From positions 1,302,001-1,366,000 of the forward strand of contig NZ_CP091851.1 in assembly GCF_022059845.1 (NCBI RefSeq): a stretch of 64,000 bases of DNA. The letters are read 5' to 3'. The stretch's first letter is position 1. Each line of letters opens with the position of its first letter. The notes under the pieces were generated by a model that did no database searches, was not told the DNA's origin, and was given only the letters and a program-made list of their open reading frames with translations. The translations under genes were made by a program, and so were the position numbers. Positions 48,024-64,000 of this stretch are shown in pieces. Origin of the DNA: Terrirubrum flagellatum. Lineage in GTDB: Bacteria; Pseudomonadota; Alphaproteobacteria; Rhizobiales; Beijerinckiaceae.

Positions 48024-48968
48024 ATGCTGAACCATATCGCCTATCGGTTGGCGCTCGCCGCGCCGGTCCTCTTCGGCGTTCTGCTTTTCGGCTTTCTGCT
48101 TCTGCAACTGACTCCGGCCGACCCGGCGGCGATCATTGCAGGCCCGACCGCAAGCCAGGAGTTGGTGGCTCAGATTCGTAGGGACATGGGCCTCGATCGC
48201 CCTGTCATCGTGCAATTCGCGCTTTATCTCGTCCGCGTGCTGCAGGGCGATCTCGGCGTGTCGCTCATCTCGAACAGCCGCGTCACGAGCGAGTTGGGCG
48301 ACGCCATCGGGCCCACAGTGGAACTGATGTTCGCTTGTCTCGTCTGGGCGATTCCGGCCGGCGTCGCTCTTGGCGCGTTTGCAGCGGTCTATCGCGGACG
48401 CCTGATCGATCGGCTCGTCATCGCGGTGTCCGTCGCTGGCGTGTCGACGCCGGTGTTTTTCATCGGGCTGATCCTGATGCAATATGTCGGCTATCAGTGG
48501 GACCTACTGCCGTTCATTGGCCGGGGCGGGCCGCTCTGGACGTTCGACGGCCTTTCCCACATCACTCTGCCCGCGATGACGTTGGGCCTCACCTTCGTCG
48601 GACCGATTTCGCGCATGACGCGTACGGCGGCGCTCGAAGTGATGAACGCCGACCATGTGCGCACGGCTCGCGCCAAGGGGCTGCGCGAGCGCACTGTGGT
48701 CATCAAGCATGTGCTGCGCAACGCGCTGATCCCGGTCGTCACCCTGATCGGCCTGCAAGCGGGGTATCTACTGGGCGGCGCCGTGGTGACTGAAACCATC
48801 TATTCCTGGCCTGGCATCGGCCGGCTCGCCGTCGGCGCCATTCTCGCGAGCGATTTTCCCCTGGCGCAGGGCGCGATTCTGACGCTCGCGATCGCTTTCG
48901 TCAGCATCAATCTCGTTGTCGACATGCTCTACGCTGCGCTCGATCCTCGGGTGCAGACGCATGGCTGA
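48024..48968 (+). CDS. Peptide-type ABC transporter permease, OppB/DppB class
   Basis: The 314-residue permease has the N-terminal membrane segment, the periplasmic GDLGVSLISNSRVTSEL loop, an EAA loop (VMNADHVRTARAKGLRERTVVIKHVLRNALIPVVT) and VVTETIYSWPGIGRL. It follows the amidohydrolase by 115 bases and overlaps the next permease by eight bases. Confidence 0.95.
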   Translation: MLNHIAYRLALAAPVLFGVLLFGFLLLQLTPADPAAIIAGPTASQELVAQIRRDMGLDRPVIVQFALYLVRVLQGDLGVSLISNSRVTSELGDAIGPTVELMFACLVWAIPAGVALGAFAAVYRGRLIDRLVIAVSVAGVSTPVFFIGLILMQYVGYQWDLLPFIGRGGPLWTFDGLSHITLPAMTLGLTFVGPISRMTRTAALEVMNADHVRTARAKGLRERTVVIKHVLRNALIPVVTLIGLQAGYLLGGAVVTETIYSWPGIGRLAVGAILASDFPLAQGAILTLAIAFVSINLVVDMLYAALDPRVQTHG

Positions 48969-49857
48969 TGTCAGCGCCTCAATGAATGATGCGCCGCCGC
49001 GCCGCGTTGGAGCAGCGTCGCTGGTGCGCCGCATCTTGCGCGACAGGCTCGCTGCGTTGGCGCTGCTGATTCTTGTGATCATCGTCATCGGCGCCCTGTT
49101 CGCGCCATGGCTTGCGCCATTCGATCCCTATGAGACCACTCGCCGTCCGTTCCTGCCTCCCTTCTGGAGCGATGGCCACGTCCCTCGCCACAAGCTCGGC
49201 ACCGACGCACAAGGCCGCGACATGCTCTCACGCTTGCTCTATGGCGCGCGTCTGACGCTCGTGATGGGGCTCGCATCGGTGCTGCTCGGCGGCGTGCTTG
49301 GCGCCCTGTTCGGCATGCTCTCCGCCTTCTATCGCCGCATCGATCCCTATGTGATGCGCTTCGCCGATATTCTGCTTTCTTTTCCAGCGATCCTGCTGGG
49401 CCTTGCGCTGGCTGCGGTTGTCGGTCCGGGCCTCACCGCGATTGTCATCGCGCTTTCGATCGCAACTATTCCCGATGTCGCGCGAGTCACGCGTGGAGCC
49501 GCCGTTGTCGTGATGGCGCAGGACTATATAGAGGCCGGCCGCGCGCTTGGCCTGCCCGACCGCACGCTGATCTGGCGCTATCTCGGCCTCAACTGCATCT
49601 CTTCGGTGTTTGTGTTTCTCACGCTGCGCTTTGGGCAGGTGATCCTGATTGGCGCTGCGCTGTCCTTCCTCGGCCTTGGAGTGCGGACGCCGGAGGCTGA
49701 ACTCGGCATGATGGCTTCGCTGGGCCGCGACTCCTTGTTCTTCGCGCCGCATATTTCGCTGCTGCCGAGTCTCGGCATCGTTCTGATTGTGCTCTGCGTC
49801 AACATTCTGGGCGATGCGCTGCGCGACGTGCTCGATCCGCGTCTGCGCAACACCTAG
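48961..49857 (+). CDS. Peptide-type ABC transporter permease, OppC/DppC class
   Basis: The ATG at 48961 gives 298 residues. The frame extends to 48916 inside the previous gene. It has GTDAQGRDMLSRLLYGARLTL, an EAA loop (DYIEAGRALGLPDRTLIWRYLGLN) and six hydrophobic segments. It forms the channel with the DppB-type partner. Confidence 0.95.
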   Translation: MADVSASMNDAPPRRVGAASLVRRILRDRLAALALLILVIIVIGALFAPWLAPFDPYETTRRPFLPPFWSDGHVPRHKLGTDAQGRDMLSRLLYGARLTLVMGLASVLLGGVLGALFGMLSAFYRRIDPYVMRFADILLSFPAILLGLALAAVVGPGLTAIVIALSIATIPDVARVTRGAAVVVMAQDYIEAGRALGLPDRTLIWRYLGLNCISSVFVFLTLRFGQVILIGAALSFLGLGVRTPEAELGMMASLGRDSLFFAPHISLLPSLGIVLIVLCVNILGDALRDVLDPRLRNT

Positions 49858-49901
49858 GCTAAGGCCTTCCTGAATTTGGCTTCATGAGTGGAGGAGAGAT
49901 C

Positions 49902-51497
49902 ATGAAAGCATTGTTGAAGGCGATTGGAGGCGCGGCTCTTGCCGTCGCTGCATTCGCCGGACCGGCGATTGCGCAGGGGTCGAACGCCAGCATTACCGTG
50001 GTGCGCGAGGTCGACAGCGATCGCTATGACCCTCATCGCTCGACAGCGCGCGCCGCGTCGGAAATCCTATTCATGCTCGGCGACACGCTGGTGTCGCTCG
50101 ACTATGACATGGCGACGATCAAGCCGGGTCTCGCGACAAGCTGGTCGGTTTCTCCGGACGCCAAGACCTACACTTTCAAGCTGCGCAACGATGTGAGCTT
50201 CTGCGACGGCAAGAAGATGACGGCGCAGGATGTGGTCTACTCGATCAAGCGCTGGATCGATCCGGCGACGCGATCGCCGGTGGCGTGGCGGGCCGGGCAG
50301 GTGGAGGATATCGTCGCTGCCGACGACTACACCATCGAATACAAGCTGAAGGCGCCGTTCTCTGAGTTGCTGTATCAATTGACCCAGAGCTTCGCCGTCG
50401 TGGTCGACAAGGCGAATGTGGAGGCGCTCGGCGCCGATTTTGGCGTCAAGGGTTTCAACGGAACCGGACCCTATTGCTGGGTCGACTGGAAGCCGCGCAA
50501 CGAATTCCGGATGAAGCGCAACGCCGCCTACAAATGGGGACCTCCGATCTATGAGAACAAAGGCCCGGCGCATATCGAAGAAATCGTATGGCGCATCGTG
50601 CCGGAAGAAGCGACTCGTCTCGCCGCGGTAATGACCGGTCAATCGCAGGTGACGCAATATGCGCCGTTCACGGGCATGCCGCAGATGCGCGCCAACAAGA
50701 ATCTCAAGATCGTGGAGATGAAGGAGGCCTTCTGGACCTATTTCGTTGGGTTCAAGATCGACAAGGATGGCGTCAACGACGCTGCGGTGCGCCGCGCCAT
50801 GGTGATGGCGGTGGACCAGAAGGCGATCGCGGACAATCTGTTCTTCGGCGAGGTCGAGCCGGCTTACAGCTACATCTCCACCGAAGCGCTGGACTGGAAC
50901 AAGAAGCTCACGCCTGAACTGATCAAGACGAACGTTGTAGAAGCCAACAAGCTTCTTGATGCAGCCGGCTGGGTCCGTGGACCGGATGGAATCCGCGTCA
51001 AGGACGGCAAGAAGCTTTCGCCGCTCATCTATGGCTTCACGGGGTCGACCTGGCAGAAGTTGATGGAGGCGATCCAGGGCGACTTGCGCAAGGTCGGCGT
51101 CGACATGCGCATCCAGCTCTTCGATGCGACTATCGCCTGGGGCAAGCTCGCCACCCAGGAGTTCGACATGTTCGGGATGAGCTATCCCTATATTTCGGCC
51201 GGTGACGCGCTCAATCTCTATTTCAAGTCGACCAACGCGCCGACCCCGAACCGGATGAACTGGAAGGATGCGCGCACCGACGAACTACTGCTGAAGGGAA
51301 TGGCGGCCACGAACGACGCCGACCGCGCCGCAGCCTATGGCGAGGTGCTCGAGCAGGTGCATAAGGCGGCCGTCTGGATTCCGCTTTATCACGAGCCGAT
51401 GAAGATCGCGGCCTCGGCGCGACTGGGGCCGTTCAAGGCCCACAATATCTATGGCTGCGGCCTCTACAAAGGCCTCGACCTGAAATTCACGAAATAA
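49902..51497 (+). CDS. Substrate-binding protein, SBP family 5
   Basis: The 531-residue receptor has a Sec signal peptide (LLKAIGGAALAVAAFAGPAIA). SBP_bac_5 landmarks include LRNDVSFCDGKKMTAQDVVYSIKRW and a C-terminal WIPLYHEPMKIAAS segment. The ATG at 49902 has GGAGGAGAG; an earlier in-frame ATG at 49884 contains that site and is unlikely. The gene is followed by a strong hairpin at 51506-51539, typical of SBP genes expressed at a higher level than the rest of their operon. Confidence 0.93.
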   Translation: MKALLKAIGGAALAVAAFAGPAIAQGSNASITVVREVDSDRYDPHRSTARAASEILFMLGDTLVSLDYDMATIKPGLATSWSVSPDAKTYTFKLRNDVSFCDGKKMTAQDVVYSIKRWIDPATRSPVAWRAGQVEDIVAADDYTIEYKLKAPFSELLYQLTQSFAVVVDKANVEALGADFGVKGFNGTGPYCWVDWKPRNEFRMKRNAAYKWGPPIYENKGPAHIEEIVWRIVPEEATRLAAVMTGQSQVTQYAPFTGMPQMRANKNLKIVEMKEAFWTYFVGFKIDKDGVNDAAVRRAMVMAVDQKAIADNLFFGEVEPAYSYISTEALDWNKKLTPELIKTNVVEANKLLDAAGWVRGPDGIRVKDGKKLSPLIYGFTGSTWQKLMEAIQGDLRKVGVDMRIQLFDATIAWGKLATQEFDMFGMSYPYISAGDALNLYFKSTNAPTPNRMNWKDARTDELLLKGMAATNDADRAAAYGEVLEQVHKAAVWIPLYHEPMKIAASARLGPFKAHNIYGCGLYKGLDLKFTK

Positions 51498-51505
51498 GGC
51501 CGGTT

Positions 51506-51539
51506 GTCGCTGCGACGCATTTCAACGCGTCGCGGCGAC
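51506..51539 (+). terminator. Intra-operon hairpin after the SBP gene
   Basis: GTCGCTGCGACGC and GCGTCGCGGCGAC form a 13-base stem with one mismatch and an eight-base loop, starting 9 bases after the SBP stop. No T-run follows. It probably protects the SBP message or attenuates downstream transcription, so the receptor is made in excess of the ATPases. Confidence 0.6.
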
Positions 51540-51573
51540 GGCAACTCACTCACAGATACGTTGGAATTGCAGC

Positions 51574-53013
51574 ATGTCCGTCACCGTCATCAGGAACGCC
51601 GACTGGATCATCGCCTATGACGCCGGGGCGAAGGGCCATGTCTATCTGCGCCACGGCGACGTCGCTTATGACGGCGACCGGATTATTCATGTTGGGGGCG
51701 CCTATCAGGGCGATGCCGCATCTATGATTGACGGGCGAGGCGCGATGATCATGCCCGGCCTTGTCAACATTCATTCGCATCCATCGTCCGAACCGATGAC
51801 AAAAGGCTGGAATGACGAGCTTGGCAGCGCAAGACTCTACGGCTCGTCGCTTTATGAGTTCATGCCGCTGTTCCGTTGCGACGCCGAGGGGGTGAAGGCT
51901 TGCGCTCAGGTCGCCTATTCCGAACTCCTCATGTCAGGCGTCACGACCTTGGTCGATATGTCCGTCGCCTGGGAGGGCTGGCTTGAGGCCTTCGCCGCAT
52001 CAGGTCTGCGCGGCGTTCTTGCGCCTATGTATCGCTCGGCCTCATGGCGAACCGATAACGGCCACGTCGTGACCTATGACTGGAATGAGCAGGCCGGCGC
52101 AAAGGCTATGGAAGCTGCGCTGAAGCTTATCGAAGTCGCGTCGAAACATTCGTCGGGACGAATGTCTGGCATGGTGTCGCCATCGCAGATCGACACCTGC
52201 ACGCCGGGGCTGATCCGTGACAGCCACGCTGAGGCGACGGCGCGCAGGCTTCCTTTCCAGATTCATGCAGCTCAAAGCGTCGTCGAATTTCACGAAATCA
52301 CGCGCCGTCATGGTCTGACGCCGGTGCAGTGGCTGAAGTCGCTTGGCGTCCTGAGCGACGTCAGCATCATCGGCCATGGCATTTTTCTCGATCATCACAC
52401 CTCGGCGCATTGGCCGGAGACTGACGACATCGGGATGCTGGTCGATCATGGCGTGACCGTCGCCCATTGCCCGGTGGTTTTCCAGCGACGCGGCATCGCG
52501 ATGCAGAGCTTTGGCCGCTACGTCGCCGCCGGCGTGAAGATGGGAATCGGCACCGACACTTATCCACATCACATGCTGGAGGAGTTGCGCGCGGTCTGCA
52601 TTGGATCGCGCATGATGGCCGAGAATGTATTCGATCTGCGCACGAGCGACGCCTTTAACGCGGCGACGCTCGGCGGCGCGAAAGCGCTTGGCCGTGACGA
52701 CGTCGGGCGTCTTGCGGCGGGCGCCAAGGCGGACATCGTCATCGTCGATGCGACCCACCCGATGATGCGGCCGCTGCGCGATCCCCTGCGCAGCCTGATC
52801 TATTGCGCCGCGGAGCGCGCGGTGAAGACCGTCATCGTCAATGGCGTCGTTGCGGTGGACGGCGGCAAAGTGCTGACGATGGACTATCCCGCTGCGGCGG
52901 CTGCTCTAGAGGAGGCGCAGCGACGCGCCGAGCCGAAGGTGAAAGACTTTGATTGGGCGAAGCGCGATCATCTTACGATTTCGCCGCTCGCCTTTCCGAT
53001 GCGGGCGCCCTGA
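51574..53013 (+). CDS. Metal-dependent amidohydrolase, ATZ/TRZ-like
   Basis: The 479 residues carry the full metal site: HSH (His67, His69), His231 in QIHAAQS, His268 in IGHG and Asp328 in GTDTYP. This is the deaminase/hydrolase layout of atrazine chlorohydrolase, guanine deaminase and SsnA relatives. It is cytoplasmic, and the likely reaction is hydrolytic deamination or amide cleavage of the imported compound. The truncated gene at 45570-46175 is a clear relative. It ends immediately before the ATPase start (TGA-ATG adjacent). Confidence 0.92.
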   Translation: MSVTVIRNADWIIAYDAGAKGHVYLRHGDVAYDGDRIIHVGGAYQGDAASMIDGRGAMIMPGLVNIHSHPSSEPMTKGWNDELGSARLYGSSLYEFMPLFRCDAEGVKACAQVAYSELLMSGVTTLVDMSVAWEGWLEAFAASGLRGVLAPMYRSASWRTDNGHVVTYDWNEQAGAKAMEAALKLIEVASKHSSGRMSGMVSPSQIDTCTPGLIRDSHAEATARRLPFQIHAAQSVVEFHEITRRHGLTPVQWLKSLGVLSDVSIIGHGIFLDHHTSAHWPETDDIGMLVDHGVTVAHCPVVFQRRGIAMQSFGRYVAAGVKMGIGTDTYPHHMLEELRAVCIGSRMMAENVFDLRTSDAFNAATLGGAKALGRDDVGRLAAGAKADIVIVDATHPMMRPLRDPLRSLIYCAAERAVKTVIVNGVVAVDGGKVLTMDYPAAAAALEEAQRRAEPKVKDFDWAKRDHLTISPLAFPMRAP

Positions 53014-54039
53014 ATGAGCGATGGTCTTCACCGGAGCGCCGACCAAGGCGACGATCGTGAGATCGTTCTCGACGTTCGCGATCTGAAGACGCATTTCAGG
53101 ACGGACCGCGGCTTCTATCGCGCCGTCGATGGCGTCAGTTTCTCAGTCGCCAAGGGGCGCACGCTCGGCATCGTTGGCGAAAGCGGCTGCGGCAAGAGCG
53201 TAACTTCGTTGTCGATCATGGGATTGGTGCCGGAGCCGCCGGGAATTCGCGCCGGTGGTCAAATCATATTCGGCGGACGCGACCTCTTGCAGTGCTCACG
53301 GGCCGAACTGGAAGAGATTCGGGGCGCCAGAATCGCAATGATCTTCCAGGAACCGATGACGTCGCTCAATCCGGTCTATCGGGTCGGCGATCAGATCATC
53401 GAAGGGTTGCGGCGTCATCGTGACATGTCGGCGGCCGAGGCGCGGGAGCGCGCGATCGAGATGCTGCGGCTCGTGCGGATTCCGTCTCCGGAAATCAGGG
53501 TCGATTCCTATCCGCACGAGATGTCCGGCGGCATGCGTCAGCGAGTTATGATCGCGCTGGCGCTCGCCTGCGATCCGCAGGTGTTGATCGCCGACGAGCC
53601 GACGACCGCGCTCGATGTGACGATTCAGGCGCAGATTCTCGAGCTCATGCGCGATCTTCAGAAAAGGCTCGGCGCGGCTATCGTCCTGATCACGCATGAT
53701 CTCGGCGTCATCGCCGAGACCGCGGATGATGTTGTGGTCATGTATGCCGGGAAGATCGTCGAGAGCGCCACAGTCGCGACGCTCTTCGCCAACGCTCAGC
53801 ATCCTTATACGCTCGGGCTGCTCGCATCGATCCCGCGGCTCGATAAAGATCGTGAGCGATTGCAGACAATCGAAGGCATGGTCCCTTCCCCCGATGCGAT
53901 GCCGGCGGGATGCCGCTTCGCGCCGCGATGCGCGCTCGCCAATAAAAGGTGCCGCGACGAGGAGCCGCCATTGCGAACGCTTGGCCTCGATCATCTGGCG
54001 GCTTGTTGGCGCGCGCCAATCGAAGTGGCGGAAGCTTGA
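53014..54039 (+). CDS. Peptide-type ABC transporter ATPase, OppD/DppD class
   Basis: The 341-residue ATPase has [45 protein letters not shown] and the C-terminal [14 protein letters not shown] cysteine region. Its ATG directly follows the amidohydrolase stop codon. It works with the OppF-type partner at 54047 and the permeases at 48024-49857. Confidence 0.95.
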
Positions 54040-54046
54040 GGGGACT

Positions 54047-55108
54047 ATGAGCGGCGCTCTTCTCGAGGTTTCCGGCCTGACCAAGCATTTCCCGATCACG
54101 GGCGCGTTCGGGCGAAGCATCGGCGCTGTGAAGGCGGTCGATGGCGTCAGCTTCACGCTCAAGCGCGGCGAGACGCTCGCGCTGGTGGGCGAATCCGGCT
54201 GCGGGAAGTCGACCACGGGCCGACTCATCCTGCGACTTATCGAAGCGACGTCGGGAAATATCCGGTTTGACGGCGCCGATGTGCGAGCGCTCCACAAAAC
54301 GGCTTTGCGGGCGCTCAGGCGGCGGATGCAGATTATCTTTCAGGACCCTTTCGCCTCGCTCAACCCGCGCATGTCGGTCGCTGACATTCTCGCCGAACCG
54401 TTGATCTTGCACGGCCTTGCGAAGCCAGCGGATGTAACGCCAAAGATGCAGGAATTGCTGCGCGTCGTTGGTCTCGGCCCGCAGCATGCGGAGCGCTTTC
54501 CACACGAATTTTCCGGCGGGCAGCGTCAGCGCATTGGTGTTGCGCGCGCGCTGGCGACGCGGCCTGATCTCGTTGTCTGCGATGAGCCGGTGTCGGCGCT
54601 TGACGTGTCCATTCAGGCGCAGGTCGTAAATCTGCTTCAGGATCTGCAGAGCCAGTTCGGACTCTCCTATATCTTCATTGCGCATGATCTTGCGGTCGTG
54701 AAACACATCGCGACGCGGGTCGCGGTGATGTATCTCGGTCGCATTGTCGAGCTTGCCGATAAGCGCACGCTCTATGCCGCGCCACGCCATCCCTATACGC
54801 AGGCGCTGCTGGCAGCCGCGCCATTGCCAGCGCCGGGCTTGCGTGAAGGTCGCGCGATTTTGCAGGGCGATGCGCCGAGCCCGGCTAATCCGCCGCCGGG
54901 TTGCGCCTTTCATCCCCGTTGCATTCATGCTCGGGATCGATGCCAGGTTGAGCGGCCTGATCTGCGCGCGCTGCCCGGAGGCGCTCAGGTCGCCTGCCAT
55001 TTCGCTGAGGCGCTTCCGGACACGAAGTTGATCGCGAAGCAGCCGTTCAATCCGGTCCTGATGCAGCGATTTGCACGCCTCAAGAGGGATCGCCTTCGCG
55101 CGACTTGA
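54047..55108 (+). CDS. Peptide-type ABC transporter ATPase, OppF/DppF class
   Basis: The start at 54047 has GAGGGGACT just upstream and gives 353 residues. The frame back to 53696 rereads the previous ATPase. It has [44 protein letters not shown] and the C-terminal [14 protein letters not shown] region. It is the last gene of the operon beginning with the amidohydrolase at 46274. Confidence 0.95.
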
Positions 55109-55548
55109 GCGCGCGAGGTCAGATCAGAATGTCGCTGACCTTGAGGGGATAGATATCAACCTCGACAAGCTGGCCGCCGCGTTGCAGACGTCAAGTCGCC
55201 CGCGCGCTCCATCAGTCAGACGAAAGCGTACTTGCGCCACATCCTGAAAGTGGCGTCCTGGCAACGAAGAGCCGACATCAGCTGAGCGTCTTCGCGCCGC
55301 GAGCGATCCGGGTTCGAGGACATCACTCCTGCAACGAGGCGGAAGCAACCTGACATTTCGGTCGCCGTCCGATGAACGAGACGCATGGGGCAGGGCGGCG
55401 CGTCGCCGACGATGCCAAGCCGAAGCGGTCGGCCCAAAGCTTTCAGGACAGGATTAGGCATCGGCTTACCATGGGTCTCGGCTGTAGCGGCTTGATGTTC
55501 GCGCAGCCTCTTATTATTAAATCAAATGAATTGAGCAAAGGGCGTGCG
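55109..55548. other. Intergenic region with a possible decayed minus-strand gene end
   Basis: These 440 bases lie before the amidohydrolase at 55549. A short minus-strand frame at about 55119-55192 reads like a protein tail (RGGQLVEVDIYPLKVSDILI then stop), but it has no gene body upstream, so it may be a remnant. The last 35 bases carry a ROK-type half operator, listed separately. Confidence 0.4.
55516..55540. promoter_or_regulatory. Candidate ROK-repressor operator (weak second arm)
   Basis: ATTAAATCAA-ATGAA-TTGAGCAAAG: the left arm is identical to that of the site at 60954-60978, and the right arm matches poorly (6 of 10). It ends nine bases before the amidohydrolase ATG and overlaps the AAAGGG ribosome binding site. 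Binding would block expression directly. Confidence 0.45.
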
Positions 55549-56790
55549 ATGGGCAGGATCATTTTGTCAGGCGGACGGGTGGTCAGCGGGCGTGGAGCCG
55601 AAGTGCTCGCGCGCGGCGCCGTGGAGATCGTCGACGGAAGGATCGGTCGCGTCGGCCCCGTCGAGACCTCCGATGTTCACGACGGGGCTGAGGTGGTCGA
55701 TGTAAGTGGCCATACGGTCACTGCCGGTCTGATCGATAGTCACATGCATGTGTTTCATGAGCCGCAACTGCTGAATTTGCCGCAAGGCGCGGCGGCGATT
55801 TGGGGCGCAAACTATGTTCAGTCCGCGCTCCGCGCCGGCTTCACGACGATTCGCGATCTTGGCGCGAAAAGTCCCGAAGTCTTCGGATTGAAGCGCGCGC
55901 TTAATGAAGGTTGGACAGTCGGCCCGCGCTACCTCGCAAGCGGCAAGGCCATATGCATCACCGGCGGACACGGCTGGCGGAACCTCAGCCAAGAAGCGGA
56001 CGGACCGGACGAGGTGCGAAAGCTTGCGCGTGAGGAGATCAAGCGCGGCGCAGACGTTATTAAGCTGATGGCGACAGGCGGAGCCGGCACGCTGACCGAG
56101 CTGCCGACGCAAGTGCAACTCGGGGTCGCGGAAATGCGGGCCGCCGCCGAGGTGGCGCACGACGCGGGACGTCCTGTTGCTGTCCATGCGCTTGCGACGC
56201 AGGGGATCATAAACGCTATCGAAGCGGGCGCGGACAGCGTTGAACACGGCGTTTTTCTCGACGAACGTGGGGCCGAGCTCCTCGTGAAGCACGATGTCGC
56301 GCTCTGTCCGACCCTCTCGGTTTATCCTCGTATCGTCGAGCGCGGCCCCGCCGGCGGCGAGGAGCAATTCGTGATCGACCGCTCCGTTCTGTTGCGGCGG
56401 CCGCATCTCGACAGCATCTCGCTCGCGGTGAAGGCTGGCGTGCGCATCGTTTTCGGCACCGACGCGACGACTTTGTATAACCCGGTGGGCGATGTCTCCG
56501 CCGAGCTCGATCTGATGCGGCAAGCCGGCATGTCCGCGCTCGACATCATTTTGTCCGCGACGCGCACAGCGGCGAGCGTATGCCGCGTCGAAGGAGAGGT
56601 TGGCACGCTGGAGAGCGGAAAGATCGCGGACATCACCGTCACCGAAGGCGATGCGACCACGAACATCCTCGACCTGACGCGCACGGCGCGGGTCTATCGA
56701 GCGGGATCGCTTGTTTACGCCAAAGACGATGGCGTGCGCAGCGCAGGACTTGTCGCGGCGCCGATCCTCAAGGCGGATCTGGCGCGTTAG
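55549..56790 (+). CDS. Imidazolonepropionase-like amidohydrolase
   Basis: The product is 413 residues from the ATG at 55549 (AAAGGG upstream); the longer frame to 55372 lies in intergenic-looking sequence. Metal-site motifs are SHMHVFHEP (His65, His67), DVIKLMATGG (likely carboxylated or bridging Lys), AVHALATQG, VEHGVFLD and FGTDATT. This order is that of the imidazolonepropionase/prolidase-like amidohydrolases, which cut peptide-like or cyclic amides. It has no signal peptide. It converges on the aldose-epimerase gene with a 4-base overlap and lies under a candidate ROK operator. Confidence 0.9.
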   Translation: MGRIILSGGRVVSGRGAEVLARGAVEIVDGRIGRVGPVETSDVHDGAEVVDVSGHTVTAGLIDSHMHVFHEPQLLNLPQGAAAIWGANYVQSALRAGFTTIRDLGAKSPEVFGLKRALNEGWTVGPRYLASGKAICITGGHGWRNLSQEADGPDEVRKLAREEIKRGADVIKLMATGGAGTLTELPTQVQLGVAEMRAAAEVAHDAGRPVAVHALATQGIINAIEAGADSVEHGVFLDERGAELLVKHDVALCPTLSVYPRIVERGPAGGEEQFVIDRSVLLRRPHLDSISLAVKAGVRIVFGTDATTLYNPVGDVSAELDLMRQAGMSALDIILSATRTAASVCRVEGEVGTLESGKIADITVTEGDATTNILDLTRTARVYRAGSLVYAKDDGVRSAGLVAAPILKADLAR

Positions 56791-57665
56791 GAACCGCGAA
56801 ATGACGAACGAATCCGCATCGAGAAGGTCGCGGATTGGCCGGGCGATATAAGCGTGACGCCGGGCTTTTCCGCGAGTTCGCCGTCGAACCCAACTGGATC
56901 GGCATGGGCGCTCAGCGGTTCGATGCAGAGGAATGGCGCCGACGGCCGGCTCCACAGCATGAGATACGGCAATGACGGAAAATCCACATGGATCATTTCG
57001 CCGTCGCGCGGACCGAAGGCGACGGAGCGGCTGTTGAGCCCGAGGAGAAGTACTCCGCCGGTAGCAAACAGCGTCGGCGAAAGCGGCAGCCGGCCGTCCT
57101 GCAAGGGAAGAATGCCACGCTTAGGACCCACCAGCCGTTCAATCGGGCGTGTGTAGGCGAGCGTGCGATCGTCCGGGAAGAGGACGACGTGATCCGATTT
57201 CGCCGCGGCCTCTACGAGCGGCCAGCGGAAGCCGGGATGGAATCCAAGGCTCGCCGGCAGCGGCTTTTCGCCTGGATTTTCGATGCGCGCCGTGATCTCT
57301 AGCGCTTTGGGCCGCAACGCGAAGTTTACGCCAAGCCGGAATGCGAATGGATAATGAGCGCGCGTGTCGTCGTCATCGCGCAAAATAAGTTCGCAATTTG
57401 TTTGGCTCGCCGCGACGAAATCGAAGCGTCGAATTCCGGCGAAGCCATGCAAAGGCATCGCATATTCGCGACGGTCGACCCGCACAACACCGCCGCGGAC
57501 CGCCGCAACCACCGGGAAGAGTATAGGGCACGCGCCGGCCCAGATCGCGGGCTCCGGCCGCCAGAGTACTTCCCGCCCTTCGAACGCCAGCCTCGTGAGT
57601 TCCGCGCCCAAAAGCGAGATACTCGCTTCAGACCCTCTTGACCTGAGATGGATCGTCTCGTCCAC
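56787..57665 (-). CDS. Aldose 1-epimerase-family protein
   Basis: The 292 residues start at the GTG at 57663-57665; the frame to 57902 would run through the operator and the divergent gene. Catalytic landmarks are MPLHGFAG (His), LGFHPGFRWPL (His) and FLCIEPLSAHADP (the catalytic Glu), as in the GalM/YihR superfamily, plus SLLGAELTRLAFEGREVLW at the start. It interconverts alpha and beta anomers of a free or modified hexose. It is divergent from the SIS-domain gene across a strong dyad. Confidence 0.85.
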   Translation of the reverse strand: MDETIHLRSRGSEASISLLGAELTRLAFEGREVLWRPEPAIWAGACPILFPVVAAVRGGVVRVDRREYAMPLHGFAGIRRFDFVAASQTNCELILRDDDDTRAHYPFAFRLGVNFALRPKALEITARIENPGEKPLPASLGFHPGFRWPLVEAAAKSDHVVLFPDDRTLAYTRPIERLVGPKRGILPLQDGRLPLSPTLFATGGVLLLGLNSRSVAFGPRDGEMIHVDFPSLPYLMLWSRPSAPFLCIEPLSAHADPVGFDGELAEKPGVTLISPGQSATFSMRIRSSFRGS

Positions 57666-57707
57666 GAAAGCGGTCTCGCCGATTGCCTTGCACAGGAGCG
57701 AGGCAGC

Positions 57708-57732
57708 ATTTAATCCACTTATTGGATGAAAT
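57708..57732. promoter_or_regulatory. ROK-repressor operator between epimerase and SIS genes
   Basis: ATTTAATCCA-CTTAT-TGGATGAAAT: 10-base arms around five bases, with 9 of 10 arm positions matching. It lies between divergent starts (57665 leftward, 57752 rightward), so one site could repress both. It shares its layout with the site in front of the ROK regulator gene. Confidence 0.7.
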
Positions 57733-57751
57733 TTGGCGAGGCGTCCATCGG

Positions 57752-58741
57752 GTGCGGATTCAGGACTATATTCGAGACCAACCGGACGTAATTGCTGCGG
57801 CGTTGCGGGCTGCGGACACCGCCCCGGCGTTCTCTCTGGCGGGCGCCGTTCTGATCGGCTCGGGCTCGTCGCTGAATGCGCTTTCGGTTGTGGCGGAGAC
57901 ATTGCCTTCGCTGGCGCGCCCGCCGGTCGTTGGCCCGTCAGCCTATCTCGCGGAAGATTACGGCGCGAGACCGGCTCTGATCCTGTCGCAAAGCGGCGCG
58001 AGCACGACCAGTGTCGCGGCTGCTGAGCGAGCGTTGGGGGCGGGTGGTCCTCTTTTGATCGTCACATGCGAGGCCGACAGCCCGCTTGCCCGCTTGCCCG
58101 CTTCGCGCCTAGTCCTTTGCATCGGAGGCGAACCCATCGGACCGAAAACGAAAGGGTTCACCGCCACTCTGGCTGCCGTGCTTGGCGTCGCCGCGCGGGC
58201 AAATGGCGCGTATCTGCCCGAATTTTCTCGAGCGCGGTTCGCGGCGCTGATCGAGGCGGCGGAAGGGGCGGCCGAAGAGTTCGCGGCGAAGCTCGACCAT
58301 GTCGACAATGTGGTCATAGCGGGGAATGGCCGCTTTCTCGGCATCGCGCTCGAAGCGTCGCTCAAAGTGGCTGAGATCACGGGTTTCGCGACGGCCGCCT
58401 TCACGTTCGAGGAGCTGCTTCATGGACGCCTGCATGGCGTTGGTCCGGAGAGTCTCGTCGTCATGATTGTCGCAGCGACGGACGAAAGACATGTCGCGGA
58501 AACGACCGCCCGCGTCATGGCCGAGCGTGGCGTGCAAGTGCGCATTCTCAATCTCACCAAGACGTCGACTTCGTTCGACTGGATGCAGATCCGTGCGCCG
58601 GCCGCGCCGCTTGATGCATTGGCCGCGATCGCGCCCTTTCAATGGCTTGCGACGCATCTTGCGCTTCGGCGCAGCATGGAGCCCGAGGCGATGCGTTATC
58701 CCGGTCTGTCGAAGGCCCTCTCGATCAAATTGCCGGCCTGA
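57752..58741 (+). CDS. SIS-domain sugar isomerase/deglycase (GlmS-C/AgaS/FrlB-like)
   Basis: The GTG at 57752 has GCGAGGCG upstream and gives 329 residues. Longer extensions cross the operator. Two SIS domains are seen: GSGSSLNALSV with ILSQSGASTTSV in the first, and GNGRFLGIALEASLKVAEITGFATAAFTFEELLHGRLHGVG in the second. The latter matches the phospho-sugar and catalytic Glu/His region of GlmS, AgaS and fructosamine-6-phosphate deglycases. It probably isomerises or deaminates an amino sugar phosphate. A ROK kinase follows one base later, which can supply the phosphorylated substrate. Confidence 0.85.
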   Translation: MRIQDYIRDQPDVIAAALRAADTAPAFSLAGAVLIGSGSSLNALSVVAETLPSLARPPVVGPSAYLAEDYGARPALILSQSGASTTSVAAAERALGAGGPLLIVTCEADSPLARLPASRLVLCIGGEPIGPKTKGFTATLAAVLGVAARANGAYLPEFSRARFAALIEAAEGAAEEFAAKLDHVDNVVIAGNGRFLGIALEASLKVAEITGFATAAFTFEELLHGRLHGVGPESLVVMIVAATDERHVAETTARVMAERGVQVRILNLTKTSTSFDWMQIRAPAAPLDALAAIAPFQWLATHLALRRSMEPEAMRYPGLSKALSIKLPA

Positions 58742-58742
58742 A

Positions 58743-59678
58743 ATGTTGATTGGCGTCGATATCGGTGGCACGGCTGTGAAGGCGGGCGCCATCGACGCCG
58801 CGGGCCGGATGCTCGTCCGCCGCATCTTCCCGTTCGCCGCTGATGGCGCGTTTGAGGGTTTTCTGGAGCGCGTCGTCGAAACCTGCAGGGCGCTGGATGT
58901 GGACGTGGGCGGGCGGGCGACAGCGATCGGCGTCTGCATGCCCGGGCATATCGATGCGGATACAGGCCGGCTAACGGACGGCGGGGCTAACATTGCGATC
59001 CTGCGCGAGCGCCCGCTGGCGGCCTTGATGGCGGACAAAATCGGGGCGCCGGTCCATGTCGCCAACGACGGCGTCGCGGCTGCGATCGGAGAGCTGAATT
59101 GTGGCGCCGCCTCGGCGTTCCGGCGCTTCGCGATGCTGACTCTCGGCACCGGCGTCGGCGGCTGCGTGGCGCTGGACGGGCAGGTGGTCACGGGTCGGCG
59201 AGGCGAGCCGCCCGAACTTGGGGCGATCGTGTTGGACGAGGGAGGGCCGTCGCACGGCGCCGGTCGGCCGGGATCCCTGGAGAGTTTCGCCGGCGCTCAA
59301 GGTTTTCTTGCCGCTTATCGAAGCGCCGGGGGGCGGGCGGCGATTGCGGATCCGAAAGAGTTGTTCGATCGCATCGCGATTGACGCCGCCGCGGCGAAGG
59401 CGGTTGCAACAACGTCTCGCCGCATCGCTCAGGCGCTCGGTGGGCTGATCAACGCGCTGGCGCTTGACGGGTGTATTGTTGGCGGCGGAATTAGCGCCGC
59501 TGGCCCGGCGCTGCTCGACCCGATCCGCGCGGCGCTGCCGGATTTCACCTGGCCGATGCTGTTGGCGGATGTGAAGGTCGTTCCGGCCGCGCTCGGCAAC
59601 GATGCCGGAGTCATTGGAGCCGCGCTGCTCGCAGGCGAACGATCAGGCGCGATCAGGAAGCGTCGGCCAGCCGAATAG
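58743..59678 (+). CDS. ROK-family sugar kinase lacking the zinc motif
   Basis: The 311 residues have the ATP loop DIGGTAVKAG at the N-terminus, NDGVAAAIGE with the catalytic Asp, GTGVGGCVALDG and GGGISAAGP. The usual ROK zinc site (GH..., CxCGxxGCxE) is replaced: GEPPELGAIV lacks the His, and the Cys region reads GAGRPGSLES. It resembles zinc-free glucokinase/N-acetylmannosamine kinase relatives. It starts two bases after the SIS stop, so the pair is one unit, and its end overlaps the convergent ROK repressor by 26 bases. The substrate is probably the sugar processed by the SIS enzyme. Confidence 0.88.
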   Translation: MLIGVDIGGTAVKAGAIDAAGRMLVRRIFPFAADGAFEGFLERVVETCRALDVDVGGRATAIGVCMPGHIDADTGRLTDGGANIAILRERPLAALMADKIGAPVHVANDGVAAAIGELNCGAASAFRRFAMLTLGTGVGGCVALDGQVVTGRRGEPPELGAIVLDEGGPSHGAGRPGSLESFAGAQGFLAAYRSAGGRAAIADPKELFDRIAIDAAAAKAVATTSRRIAQALGGLINALALDGCIVGGGISAAGPALLDPIRAALPDFTWPMLLADVKVVPAALGNDAGVIGAALLAGERSGAIRKRRPAE

Positions 59679-60888
59679 GCTCTGGCTCCGTATGCTCCTG
59701 GCGCCTCAGGCGGGCGAAGTCAGGAGTCATTGTGTCGAACATCACAAGCGCCGCGGCGCCCAGCACCCGCGTGTTGAGGCCGGCCTGCGCCTTCACCAGC
59801 CGCCGACCCTGCGGATTGTGACGGCTGGATACGCTCGGCGGCAGGGGTTCGATGGCTGCGAGCAAAGCATCGAGCAACGGCTCCGGCATCAGCCCGCCGA
59901 CGATCACAGCTTCAGGGTCGAGCAGATTCTCAACGCTGACGATGGCGTTGCGCAGATGTATGCCCGCCGCCGAAATCCACGCGGTCAGTCGCGGATTTTT
60001 CGCGGCGTAGGCGGCCGCTAGCGCCGCCACATCCACCGCCCGCGCGCCCTCGGGCTCGCCGGTAAGCGCGCTTTGCGCAGCGGATAAGGAGACATAGCGT
60101 TCGAGGCAACCGGAATTCCCGCACGCACAGGGAAGTCCGCCGGGCACGCTGATCAGATGAGCGACCTCGCCCGCCATGCCGGACGCGCCCCGCCCCGGCC
60201 GCCCGTCCATGACGATCCCGCCTCCCAGCCCGACGCCGAGATAGAAATAGAAGAAGCTGCGCAGCGCCTTGCCGGCGCCGTAAAGCATCTCGCCGATCGC
60301 TCCCGCCGTCGCATCGTTATCGACCAGCACGGGGAGGCTGAGCCGTTCTTGCAAACGGTCGGCGACGGGAAACTCTTGCCAGTTTGGTCCTGGAAGCGGG
60401 CCAAGCGCGGTTGGGTCGCCGTTGCGAACGAGCGCCGGCAGCACCAGACCGAGCCCCCAGACCCGTTCGCGCGGAGCCGCGTGACGACCGAGCAGCGCCT
60501 GCGCCGCCGATTCGATAAGCGGGACGAGCACGTCGGGTGTCGCTTCGATCACGGGCAGAACTACTTCACCGCGAATCGCGCCGCCGAGGTCGAGCAGGAT
60601 TACTGACAATCGGCTGTGATCGAAGGAGACGCCGAATGAGTAGGCGCCGGCTGGATCAATTTCGATGTTGATCGGCGGCTGGCCGCGGGAGCCGGACCGT
60701 CGCGCCCGTTCGGTGACCAAATGCTCACGCTTCAGCACCTCCATGATGTTGGAGATCGTTTGCGCGGACAGGCCGGTGCGGCGGGCGATTTCGGCGCGTG
60801 ACAGCGGCCCGTGGAGGCGAATGGCCTCCAAAACAACGCGCCGATTGTAGCGCTGCCCATGCTCCAGGTTGGTTCCGAAAAGCGCCAT
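59653..60888 (-). CDS. ROK-family transcriptional repressor (NagC/Mlc/XylR-like)
   Basis: The 411 residues have an N-terminal winged helix (GPLSRAEIARRTGLSAQTISNIMEVLKREHLV) and a C-terminal ROK sensor domain (VDNDATAGAIGE, YLGVGLGGGIVMDG). The complete zinc motif is HLISVPGGLPCACGNSGCLE. Such proteins repress sugar operons until a sugar or sugar phosphate binds. It is divergent from the gamma-glutamyltransferase-like gene and convergent with the ROK kinase. AT-rich dyads at 55516, 57708 and 60954 are its likely sites (inference). Confidence 0.93.
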   Translation of the reverse strand: MALFGTNLEHGQRYNRRVVLEAIRLHGPLSRAEIARRTGLSAQTISNIMEVLKREHLVTERARRSGSRGQPPINIEIDPAGAYSFGVSFDHSRLSVILLDLGGAIRGEVVLPVIEATPDVLVPLIESAAQALLGRHAAPRERVWGLGLVLPALVRNGDPTALGPLPGPNWQEFPVADRLQERLSLPVLVDNDATAGAIGEMLYGAGKALRSFFYFYLGVGLGGGIVMDGRPGRGASGMAGEVAHLISVPGGLPCACGNSGCLERYVSLSAAQSALTGEPEGARAVDVAALAAAYAAKNPRLTAWISAAGIHLRNAIVSVENLLDPEAVIVGGLMPEPLLDALLAAIEPLPPSVSSRHNPQGRRLVKAQAGLNTRVLGAAALVMFDTMTPDFARLRRQEHTEPEPIRLADAS

Positions 60889-60930
60889 GGCTCCAAACGT
60901 CGGCTCGAATTCGAGAGATATCAGAAGACG

Positions 60931-60950
60931 GTTGCGCGTTCTTGCGCAAC
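60931..60950. promoter_or_regulatory. Second dyad in the ROK/transferase promoter
   Basis: GTTGCGC-GTTCTT-GCGCAAC has perfect 7-base arms. It lies 43 bases upstream of the repressor start and just left of the AT-rich operator. It could be a second regulator's site or the stem of a leader hairpin for the leftward transcript. Confidence 0.4.
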
Positions 60951-60953
60951 CCT

Positions 60954-60978
60954 ATTAAATCAAATCGATGGATTGAAT
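60954..60978. promoter_or_regulatory. ROK-repressor operator, autoregulatory
   Basis: ATTAAATCAA-ATCGA-TGGATTGAAT: 10-base arms around five bases, 8 of 10 arm positions matching, with the same layout as 57708-57732. It lies between the divergent repressor (60888) and transferase (61002) starts. An AT-rich island in a GC-rich promoter is typical for ROK sites. Confidence 0.7.
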
Positions 60979-61001
60979 AAGCCAGGAGGGACCTACGACG
61001 C

Positions 61002-62666
61002 ATGGGTGTAGTGGATGCGCCGACTGGCCGGATCATACTGACTGGCAGCCGTCACATGGTTGCGGCTGGGCATCCGCTTGCCGCCATTGCGGCGCTGCGC
61101 ATCCTCGAAGGAAAGGGGAACGCCGTTGACGCCGGCGTCGCGGCCGGGTTCGCGCTCAACGTTCTTCAGCCAGACATGGCCAATCTCGGCGGCGTCGCGC
61201 CGATCCTGATCCGCATGGCCGACGGGCGCACGACGACGATCGCTGGCGTTGGCCGCTGGCCGAAGCTAGCGACGCTCCAAGCCGTGGCCGCCGCTGGCGG
61301 CGGGCGCATTCCAGAGGGACCGCAGCGCTGGGTGACGCCAGCGGCCGTGGACTCTTGGCTGTTGGCGCTCCGCCGCTATGGCACGATGTCGGCGGCAGAC
61401 ATTCTCAGCCCCGCGATCGAGCTCGCGCGCGATGGTTTCGCGATGCATTATTTTCTGCAGTCCAATCTCGCCGAGAACGCGGAGCGCCTGCGCGGTTGGC
61501 CCGGCGCTGCTGAAACGTATCTGCCCGGCGGATCCGTTCCGGCGACTGGCGATATCCTGCGTCAGCCGCGCCTCGCCGCCACTCTTGAGCATCTTGCCGC
61601 CGCCGAGCGGAAGGCACGTGGCAAACGGGAAGCGGGCGTCATCGCAGCGCGTGACGCCTTTTATAAGGGCGAAATCGCCGCCGAGATCGGTCGCTTCGCC
61701 GAGAGCGTCGGATCGTTCCTGCGCGTCGAGGATTTGCACGATTTCGCTGTGGAGGAGCTCCCCGCTGTCTCTGTGACGTATCGGGGCCAAACGGTTTTCG
61801 CGTGTGGTCCGTGGAGTCAGGGGCCGGCGGTGTTGCAGATGTTGCGCATCGCTGAACGTTTCGATTTAAAGCGCATGACGGTCGCGGATCGGACGCATGT
61901 GCTTGTCGAGGCGGCGAAGGCGTCGCTCGCCGACCGGAATCGCTTTTATGGTGATCCGGATGTCGTGAATCCGCCCCTGGAGCGTCTTATCTCGGCCGGG
62001 CATGGCGCGGAGCACGCACGGCGCATTGAACTGACGCGCGCGGCGAACCTCACCGATCAGTCATCGCCGGTCGGCCTCGGCGGTCCCGACACGACTTACG
62101 CCTGCGTCGTCGACCGAATGGGCAATGCGTTCTCTGCAACGCCGAGCGACTCCACAATGCTGATCTCGCCGATCGCGCCGTCTCTTGGGTTCGGAATTTC
62201 GGACCGAGGTCTCCAGGCTTCGCTCGACCCGCGCGATCCCAATCACGTCGCGCCTGGCAAGCGGCCACGTTTGACGCCAAATCCCGGCCTCGTCGTGGGC
62301 GAGGATTTCGTGATGCCCTATGGCACGCCGGGCGGTGAAGTGCAGACCAACGCCATGCTGCAGATGCTCGTGAACCATTTTGATCTCGGCCTCGATTTGC
62401 AGGCGGCCGTCGAGGCGCCGCGCTGGGCGACCACGGCTGTACCGGCGACCGAGGATCCGCATCCGTGCGAACCCATGGGCTTGAAGCTCGAGGCGCCTTT
62501 GATGGCCGAGATCGGGGACGATCTTCGTCGAAGGGGACACGCCATTTCTGAATGGCCGCGTCATGCGGCGCTGGCAGGCGGGGTTTGCGCGGTGAAACGT
62601 CATGGCGACGGCCGCTTGAGCGCTGGCGCTGACCCGCGCCGCATGAGCTACGCGGTTGGCTGGTAA
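61002..62666 (+). CDS. Gamma-glutamyltransferase-like Ntn hydrolase, cytoplasmic
   Basis: The 554-residue proenzyme of the GGT family contains GKGNAVDAGVAAGFALNVLQPDMANLGG and, near residue 363, DTTYACVVDRMGNAFSATPS. Self-cleavage before Thr364 would free the catalytic N-terminal Thr. PYGTPGGEVQTNAMLQMLVNHF is the conserved C-terminal block. No signal peptide is seen, whereas classical GGT is exported. The Arg-containing block after LIRM reads IAGVGRWP instead of the usual FRExAP. It may therefore be an amidase of the HpxW-like or acylase side of the family. AGGAGG precedes the start. Confidence 0.88.
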   Translation: MGVVDAPTGRIILTGSRHMVAAGHPLAAIAALRILEGKGNAVDAGVAAGFALNVLQPDMANLGGVAPILIRMADGRTTTIAGVGRWPKLATLQAVAAAGGGRIPEGPQRWVTPAAVDSWLLALRRYGTMSAADILSPAIELARDGFAMHYFLQSNLAENAERLRGWPGAAETYLPGGSVPATGDILRQPRLAATLEHLAAAERKARGKREAGVIAARDAFYKGEIAAEIGRFAESVGSFLRVEDLHDFAVEELPAVSVTYRGQTVFACGPWSQGPAVLQMLRIAERFDLKRMTVADRTHVLVEAAKASLADRNRFYGDPDVVNPPLERLISAGHGAEHARRIELTRAANLTDQSSPVGLGGPDTTYACVVDRMGNAFSATPSDSTMLISPIAPSLGFGISDRGLQASLDPRDPNHVAPGKRPRLTPNPGLVVGEDFVMPYGTPGGEVQTNAMLQMLVNHFDLGLDLQAAVEAPRWATTAVPATEDPHPCEPMGLKLEAPLMAEIGDDLRRRGHAISEWPRHAALAGGVCAVKRHGDGRLSAGADPRRMSYAVGW

Positions 62667-62695
62667 GGGCAGAGCAAACACGCAGGGGATGAGTC

Positions 62696-64000
62696 ATGTC
62701 ACACTTCACTGGACAAGGTTTTTCACGTCGCGCCATGCTGCGCTCGCTTGGCGCGAGCGGCGCAATCGCGGCGACTGGCGCTTCGCTCGGCGGCGCCAGG
62801 GCGCAGTCCGCCAAGAAGATTCTTTATTGGGGTCACACATTTCCGTCGCGGGTGAGGATCGTCAACGAGATCATGGCTCCTGGCTTCAGGAAGGAAGCCG
62901 GGATCGACGTCACGCACGAAGATTTTGAAACCAATCAGAACGAACTGAAAATCATCACCGCATGGGCCGGTGGGGCCGGCGGCCCCGACCTTGTTTCAGT
63001 CGGCGACAGCAACCTGCCGAACTACGTCTATCGCAAGCTGATCGCCCCGGTGGATCCGACTGCGTTTGGCTTCAAGACGCAGGATGAACTTGTCGCGGCC
63101 TACGAGCCCGGGGTGCTTGACGGATTCGTGGTCGATGGGAAGCTCTACGGCATCCCGATGGATCTCGCCTCCATCTCAATGTACTACCGAAAAGACTTCT
63201 TTAAGGAGGTCGGGCTCGATCCCGACCAGCCGCCGCAGACGTGGGAGGACGTCGCTGCGGCCGCTCGAAAATTGCTGAAGACTGACAGCAATGGCAAGGT
63301 GATCCGCGCCGGATGGTCTTGGCTTGCGCGTAGCAATTCGTCGCATTTCTACTATTGGGGAGCGATGCTTCCGCAGAAGGGCGTCGATTTCATTTCAAAG
63401 GACGGCGCGAAGAACGGCTTCAACAACGACGGTGGCGTCGCTGTTCTTGACTACGTCTCCAAGGCTTTTCACGGCTCGAATAAATTCGCCGCGCTTGGCC
63501 TTGCGCCGACAATCAATCCGATTGACGATTTCGGCGCCGGACGTGCGGCTATGATCAACTCCGGCCTCTGGCTCCAGCCGTCGCTTGAGGCCGCCTATCC
63601 GAAGATTACATTCAAGGATGGCGTGTACGGCATCGCGCGACTGCCGCAATTCGCAGGCGGACAGGTTAAGACCCGCCTCAATCCCTGGGTGTGGATGGTG
63701 AGCGCCAGATCGTCTGTGCAAAAGGAAGCTTGGCAGTTCGTCGCCTACATGACGGCCAAGCCGGAGAACCGCAAGGTGTGGCTGCAGCAAGCACAATATG
63801 TCCAGCCTTGGAAAGGCTTCGATCAGGACCCCGCTGTGCAGGCCATTCCTGGCATCAAGTCTTTCCTCGCGGATCTCTCGGTCGGCGTTCCCATGCCGCG
63901 CACCGCTCGCTTCGTCGAGCTCTCGAGCATTGTCGCCAAAGCCTATGATCGTGTGACGGCGAATGGGGAAAAGGCCGAGGTGGTCGTTCCACAATTCGCC
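62696..64000 (+). CDS. Sugar-type ABC substrate-binding protein, SBP family 1 (3' end outside window)
   Basis: The 435 codons visible run to the window edge without a stop. SRRAMLRSLGASGAIAATGASLGGARAQ is a twin-arginine signal. The mature protein resembles SBP_bac_1 receptors of carbohydrate importers (DLVSVGDSNLPNYVYRKLIAPVD, YGIPMDLASISMYYRKDFFKEVGLDPDQPPQTWEDVAAAARKL, MINSGLWLQPSLEAAYPK). AGGGG lies upstream of the ATG, which is 29 bases after the transferase stop. It is thus likely co-transcribed under the ROK operator, with permeases expected beyond the window. Confidence 0.92.
   Translation, partial: MSHFTGQGFSRRAMLRSLGASGAIAATGASLGGARAQSAKKILYWGHTFPSRVRIVNEIMAPGFRKEAGIDVTHEDFETNQNELKIITAWAGGAGGPDLVSVGDSNLPNYVYRKLIAPVDPTAFGFKTQDELVAAYEPGVLDGFVVDGKLYGIPMDLASISMYYRKDFFKEVGLDPDQPPQTWEDVAAAARKLLKTDSNGKVIRAGWSWLARSNSSHFYYWGAMLPQKGVDFISKDGAKNGFNNDGGVAVLDYVSKAFHGSNKFAALGLAPTINPIDDFGAGRAAMINSGLWLQPSLEAAYPKITFKDGVYGIARLPQFAGGQVKTRLNPWVWMVSARSSVQKEAWQFVAYMTAKPENRKVWLQQAQYVQPWKGFDQDPAVQAIPGIKSFLADLSVGVPMPRTARFVELSSIVAKAYDRVTANGEKAEVVVPQFA

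Follow-up and report, generated by a model that had tools for sequence, protein, structure and literature searches.

What nutrient would call for a sugar importer, a gamma-glutamyltransferase (GGT)-like hydrolase, a ROK-family kinase, a SIS-domain enzyme, an aldose epimerase, and an amidohydrolase encoded side by side? Genes for these proteins lie at the right-hand end of a 64-kb stretch of the genome of Terrirubrum flagellatum, a bacterium of soil type (hereafter the window; C1:1302001-1366000 of a 6.38-Mb genome in four contigs). A sequence-only reading had placed all six families between positions 55549 and 64000, and domain searches located each of them there. The searches also revealed a ROK-family transcriptional repressor in the middle of the locus (59653 to 60888, minus strand; PF00480 together with MarR_2/HTH_24, that is, a winged helix plus a ROK domain), which was missing from that reading's list and is the likely regulator. 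Our results support the proposal that these genes form one coregulated catabolic unit with its own importer, its own kinase and SIS enzyme, and amide-cleaving enzymes, and the gene set is conserved. The chemistry that had been proposed for it finds only partial support. As to the substrate, we see a little short of an even chance that the locus takes in an amide-blocked amino sugar, unblocks it in the cytoplasm, and then phosphorylates and deaminates the amino sugar.

The evidence that the genes belong together begins with their regulation. Reading rightwards from 55549, the locus encodes the amidohydrolase on the plus strand, the epimerase on the minus strand, the SIS enzyme and ROK kinase on the plus strand, the repressor on the minus strand, and the GGT-fold protein and substrate-binding protein (SBP) on the plus strand. 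The epimerase gene is convergent with the amidohydrolase gene, and the repressor gene is convergent with the SIS-kinase pair. Seven genes start inside the window and two permease genes follow beyond its end, making nine adjoining genes in the home genome. A side-by-side comparison of intergenic sequences in three genomes revealed a palindrome, TTWAATCMA-N5-TKGATTWAA, upstream of each transcription unit. In the window, where shuffled sequence would yield an expected 0.03 matches, there are three. The first, O1 (TTAAATCAAATGAATTGAGCAAA; 55517 to 55539), lies directly upstream of the amidohydrolase gene and has counterparts in the two other genomes (L007:7649 and L025:11569); O2 (TTTAATCCACTTATTGGATGAAA; 57709 to 57731) lies between the divergent epimerase and SIS genes; and O3 (TTAAATCAAATCGATGGATTGAA; 60955 to 60977) lies between the divergent repressor and GGT-fold genes. 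The operator positions, along with homologous proteins, were also used to revise two predicted start codons, GTG at 57665 for the epimerase and GTG at 57752 for the SIS enzyme.

With up to two mismatches allowed, the palindrome occurs in the 6.38-Mb home genome at the three locus sites only, and a reversed control sequence never matched. In both the Rhizobium sp. BK376 genome and a Neorhizobium petrolearium plasmid, the locus contains three copies, and a single weaker one lies outside it. Because the consensus had been derived from the window sites as well, we built a weight matrix from the sites of the other genomes only and scanned 143.7 kb of home DNA with it. The window sites ranked first to third (31.6, 29.4, and 27.0), and the next nonoverlapping site scored 13.8. 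In Rhizobium, Neorhizobium, Stella vacuolata, and a further genome (G239), the palindrome is likewise found together with an orthologous repressor. The apparent shared regulation that had been proposed for these genes is therefore well supported: the palindrome stands before every unit and nowhere else at home, which argues that the locus is one unit under one repressor. The combination of a winged-helix ROK repressor with a common operator before all units places the locus among ROK-repressor-controlled sugar catabolic regulons, and we infer that the repressor binds O1 to O3.

Conservation gives a second line of evidence. The whole set recurs in two distant relatives, Rhizobium sp. BK376 (L007) and N. 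petrolearium (L025, on the plasmid), with identical gene order and orientation. Protein identity among the full-locus copies is about 45 to 75%. Between the window and BK376 it is 64% for the amidohydrolase, 45% for the epimerase, 48% for the SIS enzyme, 49% for the kinase, 57% for the repressor, 59% for the GGT-like protein, 65% for the SBP, and 74% and 68% for the permeases. The amidohydrolase gene forms the left boundary in all three full loci, and the sequence further left differs among them, which puts the neighboring window operon at 48024 to 55108 outside the unit. That operon encodes a complete Dpp/Opp-type importer and includes a gene for a chlorohydrolase-type amidohydrolase (51574 to 53013). 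We considered it as a possible member and ruled it out, since it has no operator copy and is absent beside the full loci in BK376 and N. petrolearium. Downstream of the locus (L004:5003-11113), a repetitive, autotransporter-like protein of 2,036 residues is encoded.

The full-locus copies are monophyletic in the repressor tree (support 100/99), in the kinase tree (98/98), and, with weaker support, in the SIS tree (78/93), a pattern that would fit a cassette inherited or moved whole. Regarding a genomic island, no tRNA genes were found in the 64-kb window, and the change in composition is modest. The SIS family is rare. It turned up in 8 of the 397 genomes examined from the order, in 2 of the 385 from the family of BK376, and, of 357 class genomes, in the home genome only. 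Outside the three full copies, the SIS relatives that we examined have no GGT partner. Related loci (L008 and L018 to L024) contain a SIS enzyme and kinase, mostly with a repressor and sugar importer, and have no adjoining GGT-like or amidohydrolase gene. Since such loci exist without a GGT, the comparison shows that importer, repressor, SIS enzyme, and kinase form a core, to which the amide hydrolases are an add-on. In S. vacuolata (L008:3304-11943) and G239 (L018:2755-11314), the same repressor, operator, and SIS-kinase core is found with two Gfo/Idh oxidoreductases replacing the amide enzymes. These two loci form a putative sister pathway. They and others of this alphaproteobacterial type (including L020 of genome G140) resemble the window locus in their homologous repressor, SIS enzyme, and kinase and, in Stella and G239, in the operator, but differ from it in having no GGT-like, amidohydrolase, or epimerase partner and, in some cases, in having the two Gfo/Idh oxidoreductases.

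We then asked what the individual enzymes say about the substrate. The GGT-fold protein (61002 to 62666, plus strand) clearly belongs to this family of N-terminal nucleophile (Ntn) hydrolases (PF01019, G_glu_transpept; E value of 5.5e-107, 359 bits against a cutoff of 27). The equivalents of the catalytic threonine (T391 of Escherichia coli GGT) and of the oxyanion residues G483 and G484 are retained in all three copies. In the E. coli enzyme, the gamma-glutamyl group is held by its alpha-carboxylate and alpha-amine through R114, N411, Q430, D433, S462, and S463 (PMC6769717; PMC8062742); in the window protein, all six are replaced (R114V, N411S, Q430R, D433Q, S462L, and S463T). In the curated GGT equivalog model TIGR00066, the protein scores 268 bits, below the cutoff of 357.85, whereas its home paralogue on C4 scores 377 bits. 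Given the lost binding residues and the below-cutoff score, we call the protein a GGT-fold amidase, and the gamma-amide that had been proposed as part of the substrate does not follow from it. None of the three versions of the protein has an apparent signal peptide, which means that the compound has to be taken up intact before this enzyme can act. From its sequence, we predict a cytoplasmic amidase to which no acyl specificity can be assigned. Of 385 genomes of the class, 30 contain homologues with 42 to 49% identity, in varied surroundings and without the focal SIS enzyme; we had considered drawing substrate clues from their neighborhoods and dropped this approach, as the neighbors are Dpp, TRAP, TTT, or coenzyme A (CoA)-transferase-like genes with no consistent partner.

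The SIS enzyme (57752 to 58741, plus strand) has 329 residues and matches PF01380. Its E208 and H224 are the equivalents of GlmS E488 and H504 and are invariant in an 11-row family alignment. Its phosphate-binding SQSG motif is GlmS-like, whereas E. coli FrlB has SDYG at the same place. The equivalent of the Schiff-base lysine of GlmS is not conserved across the SIS family, as would be expected if the enzyme is not a synthase but a deaminase or isomerase. An AlphaFold model of the enzyme (predicted local distance difference test score [pLDDT] of 90.5) has its closest solved folds in 2cb0 (a glucosamine-6-phosphate deaminase), 2dec (PH0510), GFAT, and 1j5x. The two-SIS fold, together with the catalytic glutamate and histidine, places the enzyme in the glucosamine-6-phosphate deaminase/GlmS isomerase fold group. 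A profile search with the SIS family listed GFAT first (124 bits), followed by NagB-II (81 bits) and the deglycase structure 3eua, of the Bacillus subtilis type (67 bits). The match to the GlmS model was weak, and in the NagB-II model NF046059 the enzyme scored 56.4 bits against a cutoff of 430. The fructoselysine 6-phosphate deglycase (FrlB) model gave no match at an E value of ≤0.001, and in the SIS tree, where the branches are long, the focal enzyme does not fall with E. coli FrlB. Of the earlier assignment to a GlmS/AgaS/FrlB type, the FrlB part is not supported. On the basis of these residues and the modeled fold, the enzyme resembles glucosamine-6-phosphate deaminases and GlmS, unlike the FrlB-type Amadori deglycases.

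The amidohydrolase (55549 to 56790, plus strand; PF01979, 1.5e-46) has its nearest solved structures in PDB entries 2qs8, 3mtw, and 3be7, of the Xaa-Pro dipeptidase/arginine carboxypeptidase Cc2672 group, enzymes that cut amino acid amides, and we predict it to be an amide (acyl-amino acid) hydrolase. It scores 256.6 bits in NF051886, below the cutoff of 500, and its metal ligands (HxH...K...H...H...D) are conserved in the three genomes. No signal peptide is apparent on it. It is not a NagA: its score in TIGR00221 is 28.6 bits, and the model's cutoff is 225.65. The epimerase (56787 to 57665, minus strand) belongs to the aldose 1-epimerase family (PF01263, Aldose_epim, 1.6e-24). The kinase gene (58746 to 59678, plus strand; PF00480, 1.5e-42) starts 4 bases after the SIS gene and encodes a protein that is glucokinase/NanK-like in a PDB search, a ROK kinase with no specific sugar assigned. 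The sugar-type ATP-binding cassette (ABC) SBP (plus strand; PF13416/PF01547, SBP_bac_1/8) starts at 62696, runs through the window end at 64000 to C1:1366030, and carries a signal resembling those of the twin-arginine translocation (Tat) pathway (SRRAMLRSLGAS). Sequence searches with it returned generic sugar SBPs only. Two sugar-type permease genes follow directly (C1:1366040-1367014 and C1:1367011-1367874).

The core of ROK-controlled importer, SIS enzyme, and ROK kinase is most simply read as an amino-sugar route. In the scheme that we favor, the SBP would capture the intact amino sugar, blocked by an amide at its amine or side chain, and the two permeases would import it, with the energy supplied by an ATPase whose gene lies elsewhere. 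In the cytoplasm, the GGT-fold hydrolase, probably together with the amidohydrolase, would cleave the amide bond or bonds, setting free the amino sugar along with amino acid or acyl moieties. The epimerase would then equilibrate the anomers of the freed sugar, the ROK kinase would form the 6-phosphate, and the SIS enzyme would remove ammonia and isomerize the product to a hexose phosphate. A pathway intermediate would relieve the ROK repressor at the three operators. More specifically, and more tentatively, this may be an undescribed route for an amide-conjugated amino sugar (a hexosamine with an aminoacyl, peptidyl, or other N-acyl group). A cytoplasmic GGT-fold Ntn hydrolase that has lost gamma-glutamyl recognition would remove the amide first, and the ROK kinase and GlmS-like deaminase would act afterwards. 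A literature search returned nothing on this gene combination and nothing relevant on kanosamine or on Ntn/ROK/SIS.

Several observations weigh against this scheme. Membership in the SIS family does not distinguish a deaminase from a deglycase, and the GGT-like protein and the amidohydrolase might each have a different substrate. The N. petrolearium epimerase gene (L025:12977-13741) is frameshifted in the deposited sequence, with its C-terminal part continuing in another frame, which suggests that the epimerase may be dispensable. The SBP structure model is poor (pLDDT of 38, from 4 sequences) and gives no ligand hint. Finally, the home copy has no ATPase gene after the permeases, while those of BK376 and N. 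petrolearium each end with one. The ATPases FrlP and MsmX are interchangeable for the B. subtilis fructosamine importer FrlONM (PMC12632257), and the absent gene is on this precedent no obstacle.

If the hydrolases do act on other compounds, the regulon might serve two nutrients: the core would handle some amino sugar in free form, or a related sugar, and the two amide-cleaving enzymes would work on a second nutrient from the same source, such as peptides or N-acyl amino acids, under the same switch. The SIS-kinase loci without adjoining amide enzymes are in line with this, as are the GGT homologues found in mixed contexts without the focal SIS enzyme. However, the GGT gene heads the SBP-permease operon in all three full loci, and the unit has no second importer; we regard such a division as unlikely. 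A glycosylamine or glycopeptide route, similar to the degradation of N-acetylglucosamine (GlcNAc)-Asn, would instead have the Ntn hydrolase cut the link between sugar and N-acyl group and pass the released sugar to the kinase and SIS enzyme. From general enzyme knowledge, an importer, Ntn hydrolase, ROK kinase, and SIS enzyme are the set expected for it. The unit, however, contains no NagA-type deacetylase, given the low score of its amidohydrolase, and the home NagA/NagB-II/MurQ set lies elsewhere, making this route very improbable. GlcNAc and glucosamine catabolism (NagK/NagA/NagB-II) does share with the focal locus SIS deaminase chemistry and removal of an acyl group by an amidohydrolase, but there NagA deacetylates the 6-phosphate, whereas the focal locus has an amidohydrolase other than NagA, a GGT-fold enzyme in addition, and a SIS enzyme that is not NagB-II. 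The home GlcNAc/N-acetylmuramic acid (MurNAc) locus (L087; G000:C2:50000-69900) encodes a NagB-II-like SIS enzyme (279.9 bits in NF046059), a GntR-type regulator, MurQ, NagA, and a Dpp-type importer. A MurNAc route for the window locus was set aside, as MurQ, NagA, and NagB-II are found at that locus and the focal SIS enzyme did not match MurQ models.

The other main alternative, besides a two-nutrient regulon, is an Amadori route, in which a fructosyl amino acid, for instance a glycated peptide or fructosyl-glutamine, would be deamidated or deacylated by the GGT-fold enzyme. The ROK kinase would then phosphorylate it, and the SIS enzyme would deglycate it to glucose 6-phosphate and an amino acid. 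The sequence-only reading had described known Amadori routes as having a kinase and a SIS deglycase and no GGT-like amidase. As a statement on amidases in general, this is too strong: in the fructose-asparagine pathway of Salmonella, FraE deamidates the compound before the kinase FraD and the deglycase FraB act (PMC12755824), a precedent for amidase, kinase, and SIS enzyme in sequence. FraBDAE resembles the window locus in devoting a transporter, an amidase, a sugar kinase, and a SIS enzyme to one nutrient. It differs in its components, which are a periplasmic asparaginase (FraE), a DcuA-type carrier (FraA), and a deglycase (FraB) in Salmonella (PMC12755824), as opposed to an ABC importer, a cytoplasmic GGT-fold hydrolase, a ROK kinase, a GlmS/NagB-like SIS enzyme, and a ROK repressor here. 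Fructosamines do travel by sugar-type ABC importers, such as FrlONM, and SIS deglycases have the same fold as the focal enzyme. The B. subtilis frlBONMD-frlP genes likewise combine an SBP and two sugar permeases with a SIS enzyme, a kinase, a dedicated repressor, and an exchangeable ATPase, but the SIS enzyme is of the FrlB type, the repressor is FrlR, and no amidase or amidohydrolase is reported there (PMC12632257). What tells against an Amadori substrate is the SIS enzyme itself, which lacks an FrlB-model match, branches apart from E. coli FrlB, and ranks the deglycase 3eua well below GFAT. In addition, the home genome holds a FrlB-like/FrlD-like pair at another locus, where the kinase is of the PfkB family rather than ROK. 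We consider this route rather unlikely for the window genes.

That other locus (L086; G000:C4:107000-126900) encodes a FrlB-like SIS enzyme (101 bits), a FrlD-like PfkB kinase (208 bits against a cutoff of 247), a RidA-like protein, and a flavin adenine dinucleotide (FAD)-dependent oxidase. It adjoins the GGT paralogue that exceeds the TIGR00066 cutoff, a ROK repressor, a Dpp importer, and a Gfo/Idh gene. By its gene content, it is a possible Amadori locus of the home genome, and one genuinely beside a GGT. With a NagB-II at one locus and a FrlB-like protein at another, the focal SIS enzyme is a third, separate one in this genome.

The locus offers a clean, testable regulon for a putative soil or plant nutrient, comprising nine or ten genes under three operators. 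It also sets apart a GGT-fold subgroup for which the database name "gamma-glutamyltransferase" does not predict the substrate. If the ligand were identified, a new nutrient would be defined for alphaproteobacteria of soils and roots, and the annotation of related GGT-like proteins, present in 30 of the 385 class genomes, would be put right.

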